From Deinococcales bacterium (GTDB taxonomy: Bacteria > Deinococcota > Deinococci > Deinococcales > JAAFIG01): DNA of 64,000 nucleotides. Position 1 is the first letter of the stretch. Every line of letters starts with the position of its first letter. Below, one piece after another: positions 5,738 through 20,711 of the stretch. The notes below the pieces were generated by a model. That model did no database searches and was not told the DNA's origin. It worked only from the letters and a program-made list of their open reading frames with translations. Location of the stretch: positions 1-64,000 of the forward strand of contig JANYHH010000002.1 in the NCBI GenBank assembly GCA_025359505.1, read 5' to 3'. Made by a program: the position numbers and the translations under genes.

Positions 5738-7060
5738 TCACCAATCTCGTGCGCGATACGACACGGCTTCCGCGAGGTGCGCCTCGGTGATTTTATCCGC
5801 CCCGCTCAGATCGGCAATCGTGCGAGCGACGCGCAGCACGCGGTCAAAGCCGCGCCCGCTCAAGCCGAGTTGCTTGGCGGCGGCGCGAATGAAATTTTCT
5901 GGCCCAACCTCGAGATGCGCGTGTTGCCGCAGGGCTTTACCCTGCAAGAACGCGTTCGCCATGCGTTGCCGCCCCTGCATCCGCTCCCTTGCGGCGACGA
6001 CCCGACCGCGCACGATGCTCGAGGGTTCGGCTTCGGGGGCTTTGGTCAGTTCGTCTGGCGTGAGCTTCTGCACGTTGACCACGAGGTCAATCCGGTCGAG
6101 CAGCGGGCCCGATAACTTGGCTAAGTAACGGCGCTGCGCTGGGCTGGACGCATCCATCCAATCCCCGCTCGGGCTGGGATTCATTGCGGCGATCAGTTGA
6201 AACGCCGCCGGGAATGTCACCGATGCCCGCGCTCGAGAAATCGTCACTTCCCGATCCTCGAGCGGTTGGCGCAAAGCCTCGAGCGCGTCCCTCGAGAACT
6301 CCGGGAACTCGTCCAGAAAGAGGATGCCGTGATGCGCCAAGCTGACCTCGCCGGGTTTTGGGATGCTGCCGCCACCGATCAAGCCGGCGTCGGAAATCGT
6401 GTGGTGCGGCGCTCTGAAGGGCGCAGTCCGCAGCAAGCCCTTGGGCATCCGCCCAGCCGCCGAGTGAATGCGGGTCGTCTCCAAAGCTTCGGTACGACTG
6501 AGCGGCGGGCGCAGTCCACTGGCGCGACGGGCGAGCATGGTCTTGCCGCTACCGGGCGGCCCGATGAACAGCAGGTTGTGATGCCCAGCAATCGCAATCT
6601 CGAGCGCCCGCTTGCCCGAGGCTTGGGCTTTGATGTCCGCCAAGTCCAGCAGCGTGTCCTCATCCGGCTCGAGGCTGACGGGTTGGGCAGCCTCCAAAGT
6701 CGCCACGCCTGCGAGGTGGCGCACCGCCTCGAGCAAGGTGCGCGGCGTGTAGACGGTGATGCCCTCGACCACGGCGGCTTCTGGGGCGTTGTCCACGGGC
6801 AGCAGCACGCTTTTATAACCGTTTTCACTGGCCGCCAGCGCAATGTTGATCGCGTTACCGACCGGACGAATCGCGCCGTCGAGCGCCAATTCACCCGCGA
6901 CCAGCACCGTTTGCAATACCTCGAGCGGCAGGAAACCCTGCGTGGCCAGCAAGCCCAATGCCATTGGCAAATCGAAGCTCGAGCCTTCCTTGCGGACATC
7001 GGCGGGCGCGAGGTTGACGGTGATGCGAGCGGCTGGGAAGCCGAAACCGCTGTTTTTTAT
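5738..7060 (-). pseudogene. comM: ComM/YifB-family Mg-chelatase-like AAA ATPase, N-terminus removed by the transposon insertion
   Basis: ORF 5738-6970 plus in-frame upstream residues [32 protein letters not shown]; Walker [27 protein letters not shown]; no ComM N-terminal ~70 aa upstream, homology stops at ~7051-7060. Confidence 0.92.
6978..7004 (+). other. candidate protospacer for the transposon homing spacer (PAM AAG at 6975-6977)
   Basis: CTCGAGCCTTCCTTGCGGACATCGGCG vs spacer 4 CTCGAACCTTCGTTTCGAACGTCTGCA; 20/27 identical, mismatches at spacer positions 6,12,15,18,21,24,27. Confidence 0.88.
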
Positions 7061-7069
7061 GGAAAACTT

Positions 7070-7140
7070 CCCTACTTGACATTAAGCCACTTGTATATTA
7101 CCCTACTGGCTCTTAATTGACCTACTTTACATCGTTTAAG
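7070..7140. repeat. candidate TnsB-binding repeats at the transposon end
   Basis: Three related direct copies: CCCTACTTGACATTAAG (7070-7086), CCCTACTGGCTCTTAAT (7101-7117), ACCTACTTTACATCGTTTAAG (7120-7140). Confidence 0.6.
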
Positions 7141-7218
7141 CGATGTGTCAAGCATCTCACTCGTTCTTGCACAACCAAGAACAGTGTTGCTGTGATCCTT
7201 GAAAATTGAGTAATGCAT

Positions 7219-7251
7219 CATGCCAACGCTGCAACGTTGGCATGGTTTTTT
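7219..7251 (+). terminator. strong hairpin plus U-tract in the tnsA leader
   Basis: CATGCCAACG-CTGCAA-CGTTGGCATG (10-bp perfect stem) then GTTTTTT. Confidence 0.75.
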
Positions 7252-7292
7252 GGCCACAAGCATCGTTCTCGACTTGTTTCTCGGGAGAATTT

Positions 7293-7985
7293 ATGCTGAT
7301 ACGTGTCTCGTACGTTGATTTAGCTCGCACCCTACACGAGAAGCGTGCAATCAACGAACTTCCACCCCTGAGTAAACTGACCCCTGTGCGTCGACGCTGG
7401 TCGTCTGGCCAGCAACGCCACACCCCGGGCTTCTACTATTTTTCGACGCTGAAAAAGCACGTGTTCTACGAAAGCTACCTCGAATCTAAAATCCTCTCAC
7501 ATTTTGATTTCGAGGGGGAAACACAACGCTTGGTTGAGCAACCATTCGCTCTGCATTACAGCAAGAAAAAGCATTATCCCGATTTTGTCATGCAATCAAC
7601 GTCAGAAAAGATCACCGTGGTCAACGTGAAACCGGCGGCGTTTCTCGATTTGCCAGCCAACATTGCTGACTTTGAGATCGCTGACGAATTTGCTCGTGTA
7701 CAAGGCTGGCATCACCGCATCATGACGGAACTCAATCCGCAGTACATCGACAATTTGCAGTGGCTATCCGGTTTTCGAGCAACACCGTTTGAGTTAAAAG
7801 GCATCTCAGAACAGGTCTTCAATCTCCTCGAAGAGTCCATTTCGCTCAAACACATCATCGACGAAATCGGCAGGGAAATATTCGTCAAGCCCGTCATCTT
7901 CCACTTGCTCTGGCATCGCCGACTGAAAACTGATCTCGAGCAGCGCTTTTCGCTCGAGATGCCGATCTGGCGGGGTGAGGGATGA
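7293..7985 (+). CDS. tnsA: TnsA-like endonuclease (Tn7-type)
   Basis: ATG after GGGAG; ...FYYFSTLKKHVFYESYLESKILSHFDFEGETQRLVEQPFALHYSKKKHYPDFVMQ... TnsA N-terminal nuclease pattern; overlaps tnsB by ATGA. Confidence 0.88.
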   Translation: MLIRVSYVDLARTLHEKRAINELPPLSKLTPVRRRWSSGQQRHTPGFYYFSTLKKHVFYESYLESKILSHFDFEGETQRLVEQPFALHYSKKKHYPDFVMQSTSEKITVVNVKPAAFLDLPANIADFEIADEFARVQGWHHRIMTELNPQYIDNLQWLSGFRATPFELKGISEQVFNLLEESISLKHIIDEIGREIFVKPVIFHLLWHRRLKTDLEQRFSLEMPIWRGEG

Positions 7986-10153
7986 ACCTTTGGAACCTCG
8001 AGGTTGGCAGCACTTACCTGCTTGGTGAATCATTGGTGCGCGTGGAGCGTTTCGTCGGTCACGAAGTTTTGCTGCGTGATGAAGAAAATGTCATCAGCAA
8101 GCTTTCGATCACCGAGTTTGTGAGGCAAGCAGCGCAACCCGCCGATTCAGCAACGAAAAAGTTAGCGATTCCGTTACTTGAAGACATTGTCGGTCCACAA
8201 GCGATTAAAAAAGCTCAAAAGCTACAGCATCACCTCGAAATTGTCTTGCATGGGTTTGATAGTCAACTGGAAGATGGCCCAAACGATCCTGACTACAATC
8301 CTGAAACCACCACGATGACCGAGCGCATCAAGCGCAAGGCTGCGGAACTCGGTCGGAAGCCAAGTGCGCTTTTCAAAATGAAACGGCGTTACAAAAACTC
8401 AGGCATTGTGGGGCTGCTCGACGGACGCTCGATTCGCGATCACAGCGCCGAGCGACGAGACAGCAGTCCGCTGTACCTGAGCATTGCGCAAGTACTTAGA
8501 GACACGCACGATGCCTCGAAGAAAAACAACAAAACTTTGTACGAATTAATAGAAGCTACGCTTTTAGAACACTACCCAGAAGCGAAGTTACCCTCTGTTT
8601 CAACCCTGAATCGCTTGCTTAGGATCGTCAAGCAGGAACTGAGGTTTCAGGGTTCACCACGCCAACGGCAGAAACGTGCGCTCGAGCCACGGATGCCGTT
8701 CGGTCAATTCCGAGCAATCCGTCCCGGACAAGTGGTTCTCTTCGACGCCAACTCGTTCGATCTGCTGTGCTTCGACATCAAGTCGATGCAGTGGGTCAAG
8801 GTTGTTCTGGTTTTGGCCTTCGATGTTTACTCCCGTTCAATTGTCGCTTGGCGTTTTATCCCGCAAAGCGCCAAAGCACTCGACGCGGCACTGCTGTTGT
8901 TTGACCTGTTAAATCCCAAGCCCGCGCTGCCAGACTGGCCGGACTGCGCTCAATGGCGCTACTTTGGGGTTCCAGCAGATATCTGGGTGCTGTTGCGACC
9001 AGAAACAAATGTGGCTGCCCCCGACGCAGTGGGAAAGGTCATCGCTGGAATCCCGGTGATCACACCGCAGACCGTGGTCACCGATCACGATAAAATTTTC
9101 GTCTCTCGCTCCTTTCAGCACGTGTGCGCCACTCTGGGAATCACCATTCACCGAGCTCGAATTCGTCGTCCCACCGATAAGTCGATGATCGAGAACGTAT
9201 TCGGGTACATCAATGAGAATTTCGCCGCTCGGCTTCCCGGTTATAAGGGCGCGGATGTGGCGTCGCGCGGTATCGACATCGAGAAGTCTGCTTTTTACTT
9301 CCTCGAGGAGATCGACGCGATGTTCGCCGAGTGGGTTGCCACGGATTGGCAAAACCACGTTTCTCGCACCTTGATCCTCCCTGAACTACCTGCCCTACGA
9401 TTGTCTCCCAACGATGCGTACGCCGAGGGACTCGCTAAATCTGGGATCATGCCCATTCCAACCCAAGTGTATTTTGATTGTCTCGACACGGAGTACCGGG
9501 TCGTCGAATCAAACGGGATCACGGTCGATTACCTCAGCTACGACAGCGTTGACCTCAACTACTACCGCTTCAAGAAATCGAGTCTCACCGAGGATGGCAA
9601 ATTCGCAGTGAAAGTCGACCCTCGGGATCGCAGCCAAATTTACTTTTTCTCAGAACACGAACGTGAATGGTGGTCAATCCCATGGCGTGGAACGAAGATC
9701 TTCCCGAAACCATTCGGCGACATCGCACTCGGTTTCGCCAAAACCAAAGTGATGCAACGATTCAACGAGACATCACCGAACGATGATGACATGGCTCGTG
9801 CTCTGAAAGACTTGTACAAACGCTGGCGGGAGAACCGCTTTGACAGCAACCGAGAGCGCCGCGCATTTGGTCGCTCTGAAGCGTTAAGCGAGCAGGCCTC
9901 GCAAGATCGTCAACGGGATTCAGCAAAAGCCAAAGCAACTCAGCTACCGAGCCCGGAAAACGATCTGTGGGTCGACCAGGGCGAAAATGTCAGCGATGCC
10001 CTTTCCTCCTCCGTTAGATCAGAAGGGTTTAGCACCTCGAGGAGCGTGTATGAATCGTTTGATCACCTCGAAGAAGACGTCTCAGAAGAGCACATCTCAA
10101 CCGCCAAGCAAGATCAACCGTCCAGCCAAAGCCGCCGCAGACGCGGAGGATGA
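7982..10153 (+). CDS. tnsB: TnsB-like DDE transposase (Mu/Tn7 family)
   Basis: 723 aa; HTH region then VVLFDANSFDLLCFD...LVLAFDVYSRSIVAWRF...VTDHDKIFVSRSF...RRPTDKSMIENVFGYINENF integrase core. Confidence 0.93.
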   Translation: MNLWNLEVGSTYLLGESLVRVERFVGHEVLLRDEENVISKLSITEFVRQAAQPADSATKKLAIPLLEDIVGPQAIKKAQKLQHHLEIVLHGFDSQLEDGPNDPDYNPETTTMTERIKRKAAELGRKPSALFKMKRRYKNSGIVGLLDGRSIRDHSAERRDSSPLYLSIAQVLRDTHDASKKNNKTLYELIEATLLEHYPEAKLPSVSTLNRLLRIVKQELRFQGSPRQRQKRALEPRMPFGQFRAIRPGQVVLFDANSFDLLCFDIKSMQWVKVVLVLAFDVYSRSIVAWRFIPQSAKALDAALLLFDLLNPKPALPDWPDCAQWRYFGVPADIWVLLRPETNVAAPDAVGKVIAGIPVITPQTVVTDHDKIFVSRSFQHVCATLGITIHRARIRRPTDKSMIENVFGYINENFAARLPGYKGADVASRGIDIEKSAFYFLEEIDAMFAEWVATDWQNHVSRTLILPELPALRLSPNDAYAEGLAKSGIMPIPTQVYFDCLDTEYRVVESNGITVDYLSYDSVDLNYYRFKKSSLTEDGKFAVKVDPRDRSQIYFFSEHEREWWSIPWRGTKIFPKPFGDIALGFAKTKVMQRFNETSPNDDDMARALKDLYKRWRENRFDSNRERRAFGRSEALSEQASQDRQRDSAKAKATQLPSPENDLWVDQGENVSDALSSSVRSEGFSTSRSVYESFDHLEEDVSEEHISTAKQDQPSSQSRRRRGG

Positions 10154-11339
10154 TGACACCGCGCTGTTCCAGCAGGCTGTCGGCGAGTCACCCTACCCAA
10201 CTGAAGACCTGATTGTCACACACGACGACTGGGTACGATTCGTCGCCACCACGCCTCCACCCTGCCCAGCCGTTCCAACGCCTGCAGAGTGGGAATCGAT
10301 GTCTCTGGCAGACAAAACATCGTCACGTAAAATGCGCAGCGCCTACAACGCGGCGTTTGATTTGATTCTCACGCCCAGTCGCAAAGAGATCCGCGACGCG
10401 ATCATTCGGCTGACGACCATCAACCGCAAATCTCGAGATTCAGCCCGACTCGGTGCGGTGATTCAGGGTTCACCGACAGTTGGGAAAACCACGCTGGTTA
10501 AATACATCGGCAAAAGATACCAAATCGTCGCCTGCCGTCTTCACGTCAATATGTTTGGTCAAGATCAGACCGTAGCGGGAACGGCGTTTCGCTTCATTCC
10601 AGTCGTATTCATTTCCCTCGGAGCGCACAAGAACCGAGAAAAAGTCTCACTCTCGGGTTTCCTCAAGAAAATCTGTAAATTCTACGGCATTGTCATTACC
10701 AAAAAAATGAACGAAGACGATGTCATTGAAGCCATCATCGGCAAAACTCGTGAGTGCAAAACATCGCTTTTTATCCTCGACGAGATCAGCAACCTTGACT
10801 TGCGCTTCATCGGAGCCGAAATCATCATCGAGACGATCAAGGACTTGATGAATCACATCTCGGCCACGTTCATTTTTGCCGGAATCGCCACGAAAGCCGG
10901 CGAGATTTTCGCGGGATACGACCCTGAAAACTACAAAGATTTTGACGGTCAAATCGTCGCGCCTAACAAGCCCAAGCGAACTCGCCGAAAAAAAAGTGAA
11001 GACGACGAGATCCTTAACGATTCACAGTTTTACCATCGGTTGCAAAACTTTCCAATGTTGCCGTTCAAGGACAAGTTGAGCGAGGAGTTCGATGAAATCA
11101 TTGACCGCATCGACCGAGAAATTCGCCTCGTCAATCACCGGGTCGGTAACCTTCGAAAACTCACACCTTACCTAATGCAACGTACCGACGGGTACATTGG
11201 CGCCATTCAGACACTCGTTCGACACGGTTGCGAAATCGCCATCGCAGACACAACAGAGAAAATCACCAAACCATTGCTCGACAAGGTTCGGGTAGATTTC
11301 GCAGCCGAAACCCAGAAAACGAAGCGTCAGGCGAAGTAA
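10050..11339 (+). CDS. tnsC: TnsC-like AAA+ transposition regulator
   Basis: Walker A GSPTVGKTTLVKYI, Walker B SLFILDEISNL; ATG at 10050 after GAGGAG; stop overlaps tniQ start (TAATG). Confidence 0.93.
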   Translation: MNRLITSKKTSQKSTSQPPSKINRPAKAAADAEDDDTALFQQAVGESPYPTEDLIVTHDDWVRFVATTPPPCPAVPTPAEWESMSLADKTSSRKMRSAYNAAFDLILTPSRKEIRDAIIRLTTINRKSRDSARLGAVIQGSPTVGKTTLVKYIGKRYQIVACRLHVNMFGQDQTVAGTAFRFIPVVFISLGAHKNREKVSLSGFLKKICKFYGIVITKKMNEDDVIEAIIGKTRECKTSLFILDEISNLDLRFIGAEIIIETIKDLMNHISATFIFAGIATKAGEIFAGYDPENYKDFDGQIVAPNKPKRTRRKKSEDDEILNDSQFYHRLQNFPMLPFKDKLSEEFDEIIDRIDREIRLVNHRVGNLRKLTPYLMQRTDGYIGAIQTLVRHGCEIAIADTTEKITKPLLDKVRVDFAAETQKTKRQAK

Positions 11340-12493
11340 TGCCCGCCTCTCACCACTCGTCTACACAACCATTCCCTTTTCGGTTGCGAACTCGATCAGG
11401 CTACGCCCTCATCCCCGAACTCGAGCAGTTATCGTATCTGACCAGCACCCCGATGGAATCACTGGCGCAGGCGTGCGCAATACCGCTCGAGCAAAGCCCT
11501 TGGCGTTTTGACCGCCTGACCGTACTGCACACCCCCGAAATTCGGATCATGGCCGCGCGATTTGGCGTTGGCGAAGAGGCAATTCGAGGCATGACCGCGG
11601 AGTATTTCACCCCTCTCCTCTCCTCGCGCTCGAGGACTACCCGAGACTCGGAGACCGCACAGCGCGAGGTGTTTAATGCCCTCAATCCGTTTCCGCCTCA
11701 ACTGAAACTCTGCCCCGCTTGTCTGCATGAAGGACGCAATGTGCGCCTTGCTTGGCAGACCACTTGGACGTTCATGTGCCTGCGACATGGTTTGATGTTG
11801 ATTGACACCTGTCCGCACTGCCAGTGCGGACTCGCCTCGAAGCGGGTGTCAGCACCTGGGGTAGCCCAACTGGGTACGTGTCAAAACCAAATCGACGGTG
11901 AGGAGTGCCCGCAACAATTCGCCGACCTACCTCGAGTCCATCTCGAATCGATGCCCGAAGCGCGAACAGCACAGATTGCCTTCGAGCGAGCCTTAACCGG
12001 GCGCATCAGTCCTTTATTGGGAAGACCCCAGATTGCTCAACGCTACCTCAGAGGGATCACCAGCTTGTTCGAGCTACTCTGGATTATCTTGATCCCAAAG
12101 CACTTCACTCCCCGCGAACCGTGTATTGATCAAGCCTTTGCCGATTACTGCTCAAGTCGAGACACGCTCCTCGCTCTCGATGATAAAGAACCAGACGCAA
12201 ATTCGCGGCATCAAACTCGCAGCCCACTGATGGCGCTCACCAGTCCACTGGCATTGCAATTGGCATCTTCATCTAGCCAGCACGCAACCAGCGATGGACT
12301 GATTCATCTCATTCAGCGCACCCTTTTCTGGCAACCCGAATCCAGCATCTGGATTGCCCGTCAGCTACTTCGCCTGCGAGACCGACCTGATGTGTATTGG
12401 CATCAAGCGTTCAACCAAACCCTGCACTGGTTGTTCAAGCACGATCCAGCCGCTCGAGAGGAAACCCAATATGCTTTCCCAGACCATCATTAA
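11339..12493 (+). CDS. tniQ: TniQ family protein
   Basis: FPFRLRTRSGYALIPELEQL... with zinc-binding CPACLHEG...CLRHGLMLIDTCPHCQC. Confidence 0.9.
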   Translation: MPASHHSSTQPFPFRLRTRSGYALIPELEQLSYLTSTPMESLAQACAIPLEQSPWRFDRLTVLHTPEIRIMAARFGVGEEAIRGMTAEYFTPLLSSRSRTTRDSETAQREVFNALNPFPPQLKLCPACLHEGRNVRLAWQTTWTFMCLRHGLMLIDTCPHCQCGLASKRVSAPGVAQLGTCQNQIDGEECPQQFADLPRVHLESMPEARTAQIAFERALTGRISPLLGRPQIAQRYLRGITSLFELLWIILIPKHFTPREPCIDQAFADYCSSRDTLLALDDKEPDANSRHQTRSPLMALTSPLALQLASSSSQHATSDGLIHLIQRTLFWQPESSIWIARQLLRLRDRPDVYWHQAFNQTLHWLFKHDPAAREETQYAFPDHH

Positions 12494-13037
12494 TTTAAGT
12501 CCGAACGACAGTGAAACGCAGCGGCTGCTCGAGTATCCTTACCGCTTTCACCACGTCCTCGAAGACATCAATACGGCACGTCAACGTTTGCTGTGGCGAT
12601 TTGCGCATCAACGGTTGTTGATTCGCCACTCGCAACCGCTTGACTGGAATCGTCTCGATCAACGATTTCCAAGACTTGGTCAGCGAACCCACAGTCATCT
12701 TCAAAATACGCCTAAAGTTGGCGATTATTTCGCCTTCAATCTGCTCGCTTATATCCGACGTAGACCAGTGACGGGGCCGTGGATCGTGCAAGAACCGGAT
12801 CAGTATCGCGAGTGGCTTCAACGCCAATCGGCAGCCGTGGGTTTTGATGTTAAAGAAATTTCGAGAATGTCCCAAAGCTCGACGTATGTGAGAACTTCAT
12901 CAATGGGTTTAAACATACAACCTGTGGAGATCATCGGGCAGTTAGAAGTTAGTGATGTCGCTAGCTTTACACAGACTCTCGAGAAGGGGCTGGGTCGAAT
13001 GCGTGCATTTGGTTGCGGCCTACTGCTCATCAAATGA
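12471..13037 (+). CDS. cas6e: Cas6e/CasE (type I-E crRNA endoribonuclease)
   Basis: 188 aa; YRFHHVLEDINTARQRLLWRF N-term and GLGRMRAFGCGLLLIK C-terminal glycine-rich loop. Confidence 0.85.
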   Translation: MLSQTIINLSPNDSETQRLLEYPYRFHHVLEDINTARQRLLWRFAHQRLLIRHSQPLDWNRLDQRFPRLGQRTHSHLQNTPKVGDYFAFNLLAYIRRRPVTGPWIVQEPDQYREWLQRQSAAVGFDVKEISRMSQSSTYVRTSSMGLNIQPVEIIGQLEVSDVASFTQTLEKGLGRMRAFGCGLLLIK

Positions 13038-13081: not shown

Positions 13082-13349
13082 GTCCTTCCCACGTGTGTGG
13101 GGATCAGCCGAGTCCGACATAGATCGCCGGCATCAGCAGCGCGTCCTTCCCACGTGTGTGGGGATCAGCCGAGTTCCGGGAAAATTTCGTTGGGCGTGGC
13201 GAAGTTCTTCCCACGTATGTGGGGATCAGCCGGTTTTGCCCGTCGACATATCGGCTACCAGCCAGTCGTTCCCACACAAGTGGGGATCAGCCACTCGAAC
13301 CTTCGTTTCGAACGTCTGCACCACTTCCCACTAGTGTGGGGTTAAACCT
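13082..13349 (+). CRISPR. type I-E-like array: five repeats, four spacers; units 1-3 regular (29/32 nt), unit 4 atypical
   Basis: Repeats at 13082-13110, 13143-13171, 13204-13232 (61-nt period), diverged 13265-13293 and ~13321-13349; consensus GTCCTTCCCACGTGTGTGGGGATCAGCCG with CCCAC/GTGGG stem, I-E-like. Confidence 0.93.
13294..13320 (+). other. atypical 27-nt spacer 4 (candidate homing guide against comM)
   Basis: CTCGAACCTTCGTTTCGAACGTCTGCA flanked by repeats with changed loops (ACAA, TAGT) and changed 3' ends. Confidence 0.85.
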
Positions 13350-13378: not shown

Positions 13379-14581
13379 GTGAACCTCTTATACGATCCTT
13401 GGATTCCGACCACCAATGGCGAACGTGGGATGCTCGAGGTACTCGAGAACGCACGCACGATCAACTTATCCTCTGGCGGCATGGCGTTTCTCAGTATTCT
13501 CCGCGTGTTGCTCGCTGCTTGTTATCGCGGCTGCGAAGACAGCCGTGGATTGCTACGACGAGGCGTAGGCCTTCGCACGCTTAAAAATCTCGAGCAACGG
13601 GCAGCAGCATTTGATCTACACGACGGGTATCTCACCTGCCCAGATCTCACCGCTCGCGTAGCAACCCTTGCCACGATCATGAACGAACGGGCGGCGGGCA
13701 GGACGATGAGCTTTCACCATCATGGGCGCGACGACCGTTCACCAGTCATCACCGAGGGTCAATTGGCGCGACGGGTTCTCGAGTATCACGCGTTCGCGCC
13801 AGCCAGCGGTAAATCGGTGACGGGATATCGCACCGTCAGTCCGTGCGCCAATGTCGCTCTTGGAGTAGCGAGCGGCTCTAACCTGCTCGAGACATTAGCC
13901 CTCAATCTCGTGCCTGACAGTTCACCTCCAACACCATCATGGGATTTACCGCGAGTTCAAGAGTCCGATTTGATCGCGCGAACGCGGAGTAAAGCCGGTA
14001 GCATTGCCGAGTTGTACACGTGGTTGGGACAGGCCGTGCGGTTGTGGCCTGAAGGGGTCGGCACGGCACGCGGGTTCACCCATGCGGGGCTGCGCGATCC
14101 AATGGCCGCCCTTAGCAAAGGCAAAAGTGTGAACAGCCAGTACCCATTGCAAGGCAATGAACTCGAGCCGTGGGCGCTCGCGTGTCGCTTGAGCGGCTGG
14201 AGCACGCTACCCGCAGCGACGCTGGTACACGCTGCTGGAGTGGGTGTGGCGTTTTCGGTGCGCGTCATCGCTCAGGTCAGCGATAAGAAAAATAAGGTCA
14301 AAGTTCTCGAGCGGACAGATTCCTGTTTTTCGTCGGCGCTCATCTGCTTCGATTTGGCTCAAATCATCACGAAAATGCGCACTGTCCTCAAGAAAGAGTC
14401 CCTGTACACCGCTCGGGTGTTCGTCTCCACCTTCGAAAATGCACTGATAGAGCGAGCCGGAGCATTTCGATTGAAAGAGTTCATCGATTCTAGCGATCTG
14501 CCGCTCAGCGCGAAGCAAAAGACCAGTCTGCGCGTTCTACTTAAAAGATCGGCACTTGGAGGCAACCATCATGAAGTATGA
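13379..14581 (+). CDS. cas8e: Cas8e/Cse1/CasA (short, 400 aa), GTG start
   Basis: MNLLYDPWIPTTNGERG N-terminal CasA signature; position upstream of cas7e; SVTGYRTVSP. Confidence 0.82.
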   Translation: MNLLYDPWIPTTNGERGMLEVLENARTINLSSGGMAFLSILRVLLAACYRGCEDSRGLLRRGVGLRTLKNLEQRAAAFDLHDGYLTCPDLTARVATLATIMNERAAGRTMSFHHHGRDDRSPVITEGQLARRVLEYHAFAPASGKSVTGYRTVSPCANVALGVASGSNLLETLALNLVPDSSPPTPSWDLPRVQESDLIARTRSKAGSIAELYTWLGQAVRLWPEGVGTARGFTHAGLRDPMAALSKGKSVNSQYPLQGNELEPWALACRLSGWSTLPAATLVHAAGVGVAFSVRVIAQVSDKKNKVKVLERTDSCFSSALICFDLAQIITKMRTVLKKESLYTARVFVSTFENALIERAGAFRLKEFIDSSDLPLSAKQKTSLRVLLKRSALGGNHHEV

Positions 14582-15791
14582 GGTACACCTGATTCAGCCA
14601 ATAGCCGTAAACCGCATGAACACCAACGGTGACAAGCAACCTAAAACCATTGACTTTGGTGGCTACACCCGAGCGCGACTCTCGAGTCAAAGCCAGAAAT
14701 ACGCCAGCCGCAAGTACACGCAAGAGTTCGGGCTCCTCGATCAAAACGAGATCGCCCTGCGAACCCGAAAGTTCACGCAGTTGATTCAGGCGGAACTCGA
14801 AAAACAAGGGTTTTCACCCGACGATGCGATTACACTCGCTCAGTTCGCAATGTCCGCGATTGGGATGAGTCACAAAAAGGGAGAAGATAAAAAAATTGAG
14901 CAACCACTGCTGAACGAGTACATGATCCTGTGCTGCCAAGCCGAGATCGACGCGTTTTTAGCAGCGGTGATTCGGCATCAGGATGCGATTCGCAAGGTGT
15001 CACTGGCCAAACCCATTGCTGCCGATGAGGAAACACCCAAGCCTAACGACTCACCGGTTAAATCAAAGTCGAAGTTGACTGCGAAGAAAGCTCTAGCTCG
15101 GCAATTTCCAGAAGTGGTTCGCAGTGATTTGGCGAAGGCCTTCATCGCTCACCGCAATCTCGAGGTGACGCTGTACGGCAGGCAACTTGCCGATTTTCCG
15201 GAAGGCACGGTCGACGGGCAAGTGCAGGTTGCACACGCCATCGCTGTAAACTACGCGCCTCGAGAACTGGATTTTTTCGTATCGATTGACGACTTAGCGG
15301 CTCCCGGGGAAGCCGAGGCGGGGATGCTGGATGACCTCGAGGTGACCGCGCCCACTCTCTACCGCACGGCGGCGGTGAACACATCCCAGATCGCTCGAGT
15401 GCTGGGTAGTCATGAGGCAGCAGTACTGGGCACCAAAGCGTTTCTCGAAGCGTTTACCGCATCGCTCCCAGCGGGCGGCAAGAATTCTTATCACGCCACG
15501 ACCGCACCGACCTTCGTGCTTTTTCGCGAGGTTCAACGGGGCTCACCCCTATCGTTTGCTCCCGCGTTCGAGAACCCCGTCAGGCCAGAACGTCATCGTA
15601 GCCTCTCGGAAATGGCGGTTGCACGGCTAGATGAATACATTCGCAAGTTAGAAACGGCATTCCCATCGTTTAAGTCCGAAAGGCAATGTTGCATCAACCT
15701 CACCGGTTACGAATTTCAGAACGCGCCAAGCGTGAAGAATCTACGTGCGGCGCTCGAGTACATGCTGCAAGACAGGCACATTGATGGCTGA
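14571..15791 (+). CDS. cas7e: Cas7e/Cse4/CasC
   Basis: EVHLIQPIAVNRMNTNGDKQPKTIDFGGYTRARLSSQSQKYASRKY, Cse4 family N-terminus. Confidence 0.92.
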   Translation: MKYEVHLIQPIAVNRMNTNGDKQPKTIDFGGYTRARLSSQSQKYASRKYTQEFGLLDQNEIALRTRKFTQLIQAELEKQGFSPDDAITLAQFAMSAIGMSHKKGEDKKIEQPLLNEYMILCCQAEIDAFLAAVIRHQDAIRKVSLAKPIAADEETPKPNDSPVKSKSKLTAKKALARQFPEVVRSDLAKAFIAHRNLEVTLYGRQLADFPEGTVDGQVQVAHAIAVNYAPRELDFFVSIDDLAAPGEAEAGMLDDLEVTAPTLYRTAAVNTSQIARVLGSHEAAVLGTKAFLEAFTASLPAGGKNSYHATTAPTFVLFREVQRGSPLSFAPAFENPVRPERHRSLSEMAVARLDEYIRKLETAFPSFKSERQCCINLTGYEFQNAPSVKNLRAALEYMLQDRHIDG

Positions 15792-16221
15792 GCTGAAAAT
15801 GCGATTGCAGGGACCGATGCAGGCTTGGGGTGTGGACGGAGCAGGTCAGATCAGACGCACCCATGCCGCGCCGCAAAAGCGGGCGGTTCTCGGTTTGATC
15901 CGCGCCGCCAAGGGCTTATCGCGCGATGAGGAATGGGCAGATCTCGAGGATCTCGAGTACCGCTGCGAAACCCTGCGGTCAGGCGTGCGGATGTGGGATT
16001 TCGCGACGATGTCAAACGTGATCAGCGCCGACGGGAAGGTAACGCACCCCCGAGGAATTCAGGAAAAGGAATACCTCGCAAATGCTGATTTTCTCATTCA
16101 TTTGGCAGGGAGCGACGATCTCATTGCTGAGGTCAGGGCTGCTCTCGAAGACCCAGTGTTTTTGATCGGCTTGGGTCGCCGCGATTGCCCGCCGAGTGCA
16201 CCCTTGCTTGCCGATTTGTAA
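15784..16221 (+). CDS. cas5e: Cas5e/CasD (short, 145 aa)
   Basis: MRLQGPMQAWGVDG...RRTHAAPQKRAVLGLIRAAKG...FLIGLGRRDCPPSAPL, Cas5e signatures; C-terminus ends right after the GRR.CPPS motif. Confidence 0.88.
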   Translation: MAELKMRLQGPMQAWGVDGAGQIRRTHAAPQKRAVLGLIRAAKGLSRDEEWADLEDLEYRCETLRSGVRMWDFATMSNVISADGKVTHPRGIQEKEYLANADFLIHLAGSDDLIAEVRAALEDPVFLIGLGRRDCPPSAPLLADL

Positions 16222-16453: not shown

Positions 16454-16948
16454 TCAAAACGTTCCCGAAGCAATTCTTCTAAGGATCGCCATCACAGTTT
16501 CGTACCCGTCAATGCTGATCAGCATCTCGAGTGGACACTGACCGCCGAGAGCGGGCAAGCTCGACCTCATCCAAATGCTCGCATTGTCCTCACCGCCAAG
16601 GACGGTGGTCGCACGTTCGAACACTCGGCTGACCATTTCGACCTTCAAACCTTCAGCTCTGTCATCAAAGCGTTTAGCATACTCCTGCGCAGCTCGAGCC
16701 AGACGAGCGTTGGCTGCCATGGGATGCAGGACAGCGGTGCTGAACGCTCTCGAGTCCGCGCTGCTCAGCGCCATTGATTCGTCCATCTGAATGGTACGCA
16801 CCGCCGCCTCCATTGCCGCTGTCACGACGAACTCGGTCAGTGTGATCCCACGCAGTGCAGCCGCGCGTTGCAGCAGTGCTTTGCGCTCGAGCGGAACGCG
16901 CAACCGCAGGCGCGTCATGGATTCGGTGATCAGTTGGGCTTTACGCAT
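16454..16948 (-). CDS. antitoxin-like protein: DUF1778/RHH-like N-terminus plus MbcA/Xre-type (DUF2384-like) C-terminal domain
   Basis: RLRLRVPLERKALLQRAAALRGITLTEFVVTAAMEAA and RVFERATTVLGGEDNASIWMRSSLPALGGQCPLEMLISIDGYETVMAIL. Confidence 0.7.
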   Translation of the reverse strand: MRKAQLITESMTRLRLRVPLERKALLQRAAALRGITLTEFVVTAAMEAAVRTIQMDESMALSSADSRAFSTAVLHPMAANARLARAAQEYAKRFDDRAEGLKVEMVSRVFERATTVLGGEDNASIWMRSSLPALGGQCPLEMLISIDGYETVMAILRRIASGTF

Positions 16949-20075: not shown

Positions 20076-20711
20076 TCACACACGATCACGCTGACCCTCA
20101 ATTAATTCCTGAACCTCACGACGGCCCTGTGCTGGTTTCCATGCCGCCCATCGGGCTGGAACCGTCAACGCCACCTGCTCGAGTTGTTGCGCGACGAGTA
20201 CATTCCCCCGCAGCGTGCCGCGCATATGCACGGAGTTAGCATCTTCAAGGTTGGCGAGTTGCTCGAGTGATGCCTCAGCCGCAACGATGAACGGCTCGAG
20301 TTTGGCGCGTTCGGGGTAGACGCGCAGCACCGCGAGCCGGCTGGTTTGATCGAGACGGACGACTTGACCCGAAGCGCTCCAAATCGTCTCGTTATCGTCC
20401 TCTCGAGGGAATCGCAGGTTGACCATCTTGACGGGGTTGACGAGTGACCCATCTAAACGAGTGCGAAAATGTGCTGTCAATCGCCAGCGTCCCGACAACG
20501 CCGTGCCGAGACGCAATGCTTCGGGGCTAGCAGTGCAGCGCAAGCGCGTACCATCGTCAAGCTCGAGTTCGACAAGTTCGCCGCGTCCCGGATCGTGAAT
20601 GATGGCGGTCACAAGTAAGAAGGCGTGGTGGCTCTTCGGGAGGTTCGGTGGTGACTTGGTGGGGGTGGCGGTCGGCGGCAAGGTGGAACCTCCTCGAAAT
20701 GCAATCGCCAC
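20076..20711 (-). CDS. hypothetical protein (211 aa), possibly beta-rich/OB-fold-like
   Basis: Intact ORF upstream of and co-directional with the 18-20 kb pair. Confidence 0.45.
   Translation of the reverse strand: MAIAFRGGSTLPPTATPTKSPPNLPKSHHAFLLVTAIIHDPGRGELVELELDDGTRLRCTASPEALRLGTALSGRWRLTAHFRTRLDGSLVNPVKMVNLRFPREDDNETIWSASGQVVRLDQTSRLAVLRVYPERAKLEPFIVAAEASLEQLANLEDANSVHMRGTLRGNVLVAQQLEQVALTVPARWAAWKPAQGRREVQELIEGQRDRV

Follow-up and report, generated by a model that had tools for sequence, protein, structure and literature searches.

The 2025 classification of CRISPR systems lists Tn7-like CASTs of types I-F, I-B, I-D, I-C and IV-A and a type I-A CAST with Mu, and it describes an I-E5 CAST on telomeric transposons that has an active Cas3 and is without TniQ (PMC12669027). 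For one I-F3 CAST, insertion is reported 49 bp downstream of the protospacer (PMC12774636); the terminal repeats are diverged in I-F3b, and wobble variation between hosts is the benefit given for mismatch tolerance in I-F3 (PMC11406308). We analyzed a stretch of 64,000 nucleotides from a Deinococcales genome (the window) and found in it an element with the appearance of a CRISPR-guided transposon, belonging to a subtype absent from the 2025 classification. Full-text literature searches, whose coverage was partial, returned no further report of an I-E CAST, and an earlier report is possible.

Gene content and boundaries of the element

The first base of the element is at 7058, where its right end begins (7058 to 7292, forward strand). 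This end has the terminal sequence TATGGAAAACTTCC and carries repeated CCTACT motifs, which are likely to be TnsB sites. Reading from it, and all on the forward strand, the operon consists of tnsA, tnsB, tnsC, tniQ, cas6e, the CRISPR array, cas8e, cas7e and cas5e. The tnsA product (7293 to 7985) scored 147.6 bits against NF033179 (cutoff, 110) and matched PF08722; tnsB (7982 to 10153) encodes a DDE transposase with an rve and IS481-type core that matches CAST TnsB structures; tnsC (10050 to 11339) encodes an AAA+ ATPase above the cutoffs of AAA_22 and TniB; and tniQ (11339 to 12493) scored 44.9 bits against PF06527 (cutoff, 27) and matched the models for TniQ from CASTs of types I-F and V-K. 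The whole tnsB, tnsC and tniQ core is present, together with tnsA, which most CAST types have, and this core is conserved in the two related elements described below, with the Walker A and B motifs of TnsC kept in all three.

The products of three cas genes exceeded their type I-E NCBIfam cutoffs: Cas6e (12471 to 13037) that of TIGR01907, with PF08798 also above cutoff; Cas7e (14571 to 15791) that of TIGR01869 (181 bits; cutoff, 178), with a match to PF09344; and Cas5e (15784 to 16221) that of TIGR01868, with PF09704 also above cutoff. Cas5e is short, at 145 aa, and alignment showed that this length is kept in its relatives. Cas8e (13379 to 14581), also short at 400 aa, scored above the Pfam cutoff (PF09481, 79.1 bits versus 24.7) and below that of the NCBIfam equivalog TIGR02547 (27.8 versus 70.05); it matched CasA/Cse1 in the PDB, its N-terminal 250 residues resembling Cse1 and its C-terminal third being diverged. 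The cas genes of the operon are limited to these four, without a target nuclease or adaptation genes; no cas3, cas1, cas2 or cas11 was found in it, and the Cas1 and Cas3 of the source genome (G000) are encoded on other contigs. A separate Cas11 (Cse2) was also sought with PF09485 in G000 and in three further genomes (G005, G006 and G007), none of which gave a match, and the operon leaves no gap for one. We therefore regard the effector as derived from type I-E rather than as a canonical I-E Cascade with all its subunits. The models that AlphaFold gave for Cas8e and TniQ, with mean confidences of 37 and 49, respectively, were set aside.

The element splits comM. The 3′ part of this gene, with Mg_chelatase/ChlI domains and 80% identity to the intact comM of G006, abuts the right end (5738 to 7057, reverse strand) on the contig of the window, C55, and the 5′ part ends at position 89453 of contig C54, where an element end, TATAGAAAATC, starts. 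AAAAA stands at both comM junctions, on the two contigs (it reads TTTTT at 7053 to 7057, inside the 3′ part of the gene), and the empty site in G006 comM reads ATTAAAAACAGT, which together indicate a 5-bp target-site duplication. No overlap was found between C55 and C54, which carry the two halves of comM, and C55 showed no matching left end between 7 and 74 kb. An accessory gene without a Pfam match (20076 to 20711, reverse strand) occurs on the downstream side of cas5e in each of the three elements, which suggests that the element reaches at least that far, and the gene is probably inside it.

Several other features of these contigs were observed. The accessory gene is represented by a tandem pair in both relatives (L054 15972-17316 in G005 and L055 19173-20470 in G006). 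Adjoining cas5e in the window is a gene with TacA1-like and Xre/MbcA/ParS antitoxin domains (16454 to 16948), and just inside the other element end, on C54, are trypsin/EAD1, GAP1-N1 and double-GTPase genes (L006 5833-10338), a defense-type cargo. Positions 1 to 142 of the window match the end of C54 at 88%, an IS-like sequence at the contig edge. In G007, comM is also interrupted (L053 548-3150 and L052, on contigs C58 and C32), beside a gene of 556 aa without an assigned type, and insertions into comM may recur in this bacterial family.

The terminal spacer and its match in comM

The CRISPR array (13082 to 13349, forward strand) has five 29-nt repeats, starting at 13082, 13143, 13204, 13265 and 13321, of which the last two deviate at 6 and 9 of 29 positions. 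The hairpin was retained in the three repeats folded, the last two among them. Spacers 1 to 3 are 32 nt long, and spacer 4 (13294 to 13320) is 27 nt long. An earlier note on this DNA had proposed that spacer 4 targets the comM gene in which the element sits, and we reproduced all of its particulars. Spacer 4 is identical at 20 of 27 positions to comM 6978 to 7004 (forward strand), which follows an AAG PAM at 6975 to 6977, and the mismatches are at positions 6, 12, 15, 18, 21, 24 and 27. All seven fall at third codon positions of comM (chance of 4e-5 for a fixed phase), and that at position 12 (Lys to Asn) is the sole amino acid change.

As a 20/27 match is expected about once by chance in a 4.2-Mb genome, identity alone is weak evidence, and the location next to the element end is decisive. 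A shuffled-spacer control near the junction, which the earlier note had suggested, came out in favor of the match: over the 300 bp that adjoin the element end, only 1 of 20,000 shuffled versions of spacer 4 equaled the real one. Spacers 1 to 3 reached only 16 to 17 of 32 positions in the same 300 bp, and the nonterminal spacers of both the window and G005 had no match to their flanks. A search for a better target or source gene in genomes of the phylum, allowing up to three mismatches, returned nothing but spacer 4 itself, and no exact matches to spacers 1 and 3 were found in viral contigs. The earlier note had also held that the guide is adapted to a site conserved across hosts. This was upheld within the bacterial family, where the comM site was recognizable at conserved positions in G000, G006 and G007 (the PAM being AAA in the latter two), and it did not extend to the other Deinococcota genomes searched, in which the site was not found at conserved positions.

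The flipping out of every sixth spacer base had been offered as the reason why mismatches at 6, 12, 18 and 24 would be tolerated, and this rationale did not hold. Over comM and the rqcH target of G005 (see below), third-position mismatches were equally common at flipped (6 of 9) and read (8 of 10) positions, and G005 has mismatches at read positions 3, 9, 15, 21, 27 and 28. Thus, codon wobble and not base flipping orders the mismatches. Several mismatches nevertheless affect read positions, among them position 3 (G005 and G006) and positions 27 and 28 (G005), and these count against homing; in an I-F3 CAST, a mismatch block at positions 25 to 29 abolished transposition (PMC12774636).

Two related elements and the distance from guide to end

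A search with Cas8e in 112 genomes of the phylum gave two close matches, in G005 and G006, which belong to the same bacterial family and carry the same operon; the TnsB proteins of these elements are 45 to 50% identical. With a TnsB profile, only the same two relatives, both in Deinococcales MAGs, were found among GTDB species genomes, and none was found in viral contigs. The G005 element sits in the 3′ end of a gene that we take to be rqcH-like from a reading of its NFACT/DUF814-type sequence rather than from an HMM result. The last spacer of this element matches the gene at 24 of 32 positions with an AAG PAM; no other site in the flank exceeds 18 of 32, and none of 20,000 shuffles reached 24. 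Seven of the eight mismatches are at third codon positions, and the spacer is nearer to the intact rqcH of G006 (27 of 32, AAG).

In the G006 element, 26 of the 32 positions of the last spacer are identical to a tRNA-Glu gene, again with an AAG PAM and with none of 20,000 shuffles as good, and an element end starts 52 bp beyond this protospacer. This target was found by using a pattern that leaves every third position open, a choice that biased the search toward matches of this kind; the evidence for the site is therefore the complete 26/32 identity, the PAM and the adjacent end. The tRNA-side end belongs to contig C11 and the cas genes to C12, and the only connection between these contigs is a 125-bp overlap of the last bases of C11 with the first bases of C12. 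Where the element closes on C12, this terminal sequence recurs in inverted orientation, matching at 25 of 27 positions, and the two contigs, if joined, hold one element of about 109 kb; the 160 kb of C12 contains no match to the last spacer. Also on C12, a gap of about 5 bp separates two element ends in facing orientation (L061 4507-4602), an arrangement suggestive of a second insertion at tRNA-Glu next to an earlier one. On contig C38 of G005, which has no tns or cas genes, there is an element-like end, TATGGAAAATCG, 53 bp past a tRNA-Glu protospacer (L076 3738), perhaps a scar or another element.

The comparison with related elements that the earlier note had suggested also came out in favor of its reading: the terminal spacer of the G005 element matches the gene that flanks it, rqcH, and that of G006 matches a tRNA-Glu gene beside an element end, so the proposal of an atypical terminal homing guide for a host gene is supported in three elements. 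In each, guide and flank match with an AAG PAM at a nearly fixed distance from the protospacer to the element end (53 bp in the window, 51 bp in G005 and 52 bp in G006). The distance of 53 bp uses the 27-nt spacer 4, and a 32-nt reading would give 48; in G006, where the last repeat is strongly diverged, the spacer can be read as 28 nt, giving 56. A 27-nt guide fits the window spacing better than a 32-nt one, and one case does not establish a ruler. The end nearest the target is the right end in both the window and G005, which is the convention for CASTs (PMC11406308).

Explanations of the match and comparison with known systems

From the gene content, guide-target match, PAM, spacing, split gene and three elements read in the DNA, we consider it very probable that this is a Tn7-like CAST that has co-opted a type I-E Cascade, with TniQ, and that its terminal crRNA homes to a conserved gene. 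The sequence comparisons support spacer 4 as the atypical terminal homing guide for comM, and homing is probably by crRNA, as in I-F3 and V-K. In the mechanism we envisage, Cas6e would process the array, and Cas5e, Cas7e and Cas8e would hold the crRNA. As judged from other CASTs, TniQ would bridge Cascade to TnsC and TnsAB, and the crRNA would thereby direct TnsAB through TniQ and TnsC. The terminal crRNA would locate a conserved chromosomal gene via an AAG PAM, and TnsAB would place the right end about 51 to 53 bp past the guide, counted from its PAM-distal end, and duplicate 5 bp of the target. The window element would have been directed into comM by spacer 4, and rqcH and tRNA-Glu would be the sites of the homing guides of its relatives. 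We infer that the guide directs insertion and that mismatches are tolerated; a guide that was acquired from a diverged homologue of a conserved gene, or that is retained to match one, would be expected to show third-position mismatches. With somewhat less confidence, we favor a separate co-option of I-E Cascade, without Cas11, by a TniQ-bearing Tn7-like transposon confined to one Deinococcales family, swapping only the terminal homing spacer among unrelated sites (comM, rqcH and tRNA-Glu); the length of the guide may determine where insertion occurs.

An improbable alternative, although the one that survives best, is that a protein recognizes the comM site, with TniQ in the role of a DNA binder like TnsD or TnsF, and that the match of the spacer is a side effect or has some other function. 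Protein selectors for comM are known in Tn6022 and Tsy (PMC10293859), and I-B and I-D CASTs locate their att site with TniQ (PMC11406308). However, the three elements are located at, or point to, three unrelated sites, and the spacer changes with the site each time. Furthermore, TnsF works at the Walker B region of comM, far from codon 60, and no second TniQ or TnsF was seen among the genes of the operon. Less probable still is a role for the Cas3-less Cascade in silencing comM or in defense of the element, the self-matching spacer being regulatory and not for transposition. A Cascade without a nuclease can repress transcription, and the protospacer does lie inside a gene, but comM is already disrupted, and neither the constant offset of 51 to 53 bp in three elements nor the operon shared with tnsABC and tniQ would be explained. 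Chance, with its one expected 20/27 match per genome, is refuted for the three elements together by the location, the AAG PAM, the codon phase and the two independent replicates, and we give it almost no weight.

If the element is indeed a CAST that homes by its terminal crRNA, crRNA homing would occur outside I-F3 and V-K, and a candidate for programmable insertion with a known PAM type would be added. Type I-E is the best-studied Cascade, and a TniQ-bearing I-E transposon is missing from the 2025 classification; the interface between TniQ and Cascade would be open to study in a subtype rich in structural data.

The closest plasmid relatives of its TnsB, at about 30% identity, are in actinobacterial Tn7-like elements with TnsA_like_Actin, although no cas genes are annotated beside the two annotated examples of these that were examined. 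The element shares insertion in comM with the TnsF-guided Tn6022 and Tsy, but their protein selector acts at the Walker B motif, whereas here a crRNA matches near codon 60, at a distance of 53 bp from the end. Like the I-E5 CAST, it is a transposon that has recruited a type I-E effector (PMC12669027); in contrast, TniQ is present, Cas3 is absent from the operon and the insertion is in a chromosomal gene, which places it outside I-E5. Like the type V-K CAST (ShCAST), it appears to have a dedicated crRNA for its att site, and its TnsB and TnsC match solved V-K proteins by sequence; V-K, however, has a single Cas12k effector and no TnsA, whereas here there are TnsA and a multisubunit Cascade. It is like the type I-F3 CASTs (Tn6677 and Tn6900) in having tnsABC and tniQ, a Cas3-less Cascade, probable crRNA homing to conserved genes, a diverged terminal repeat, att-site mismatches and a similar spacing (about 49 bp past the protospacer in an I-F3 CAST). 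Unlike them, it has a Cascade that is type I-E by sequence (Cas6e, Cas7e, Cas5e and Cas8e), an AAG PAM and a 29-nt I-E-type repeat, and its att sites are comM, rqcH and tRNA-Glu.
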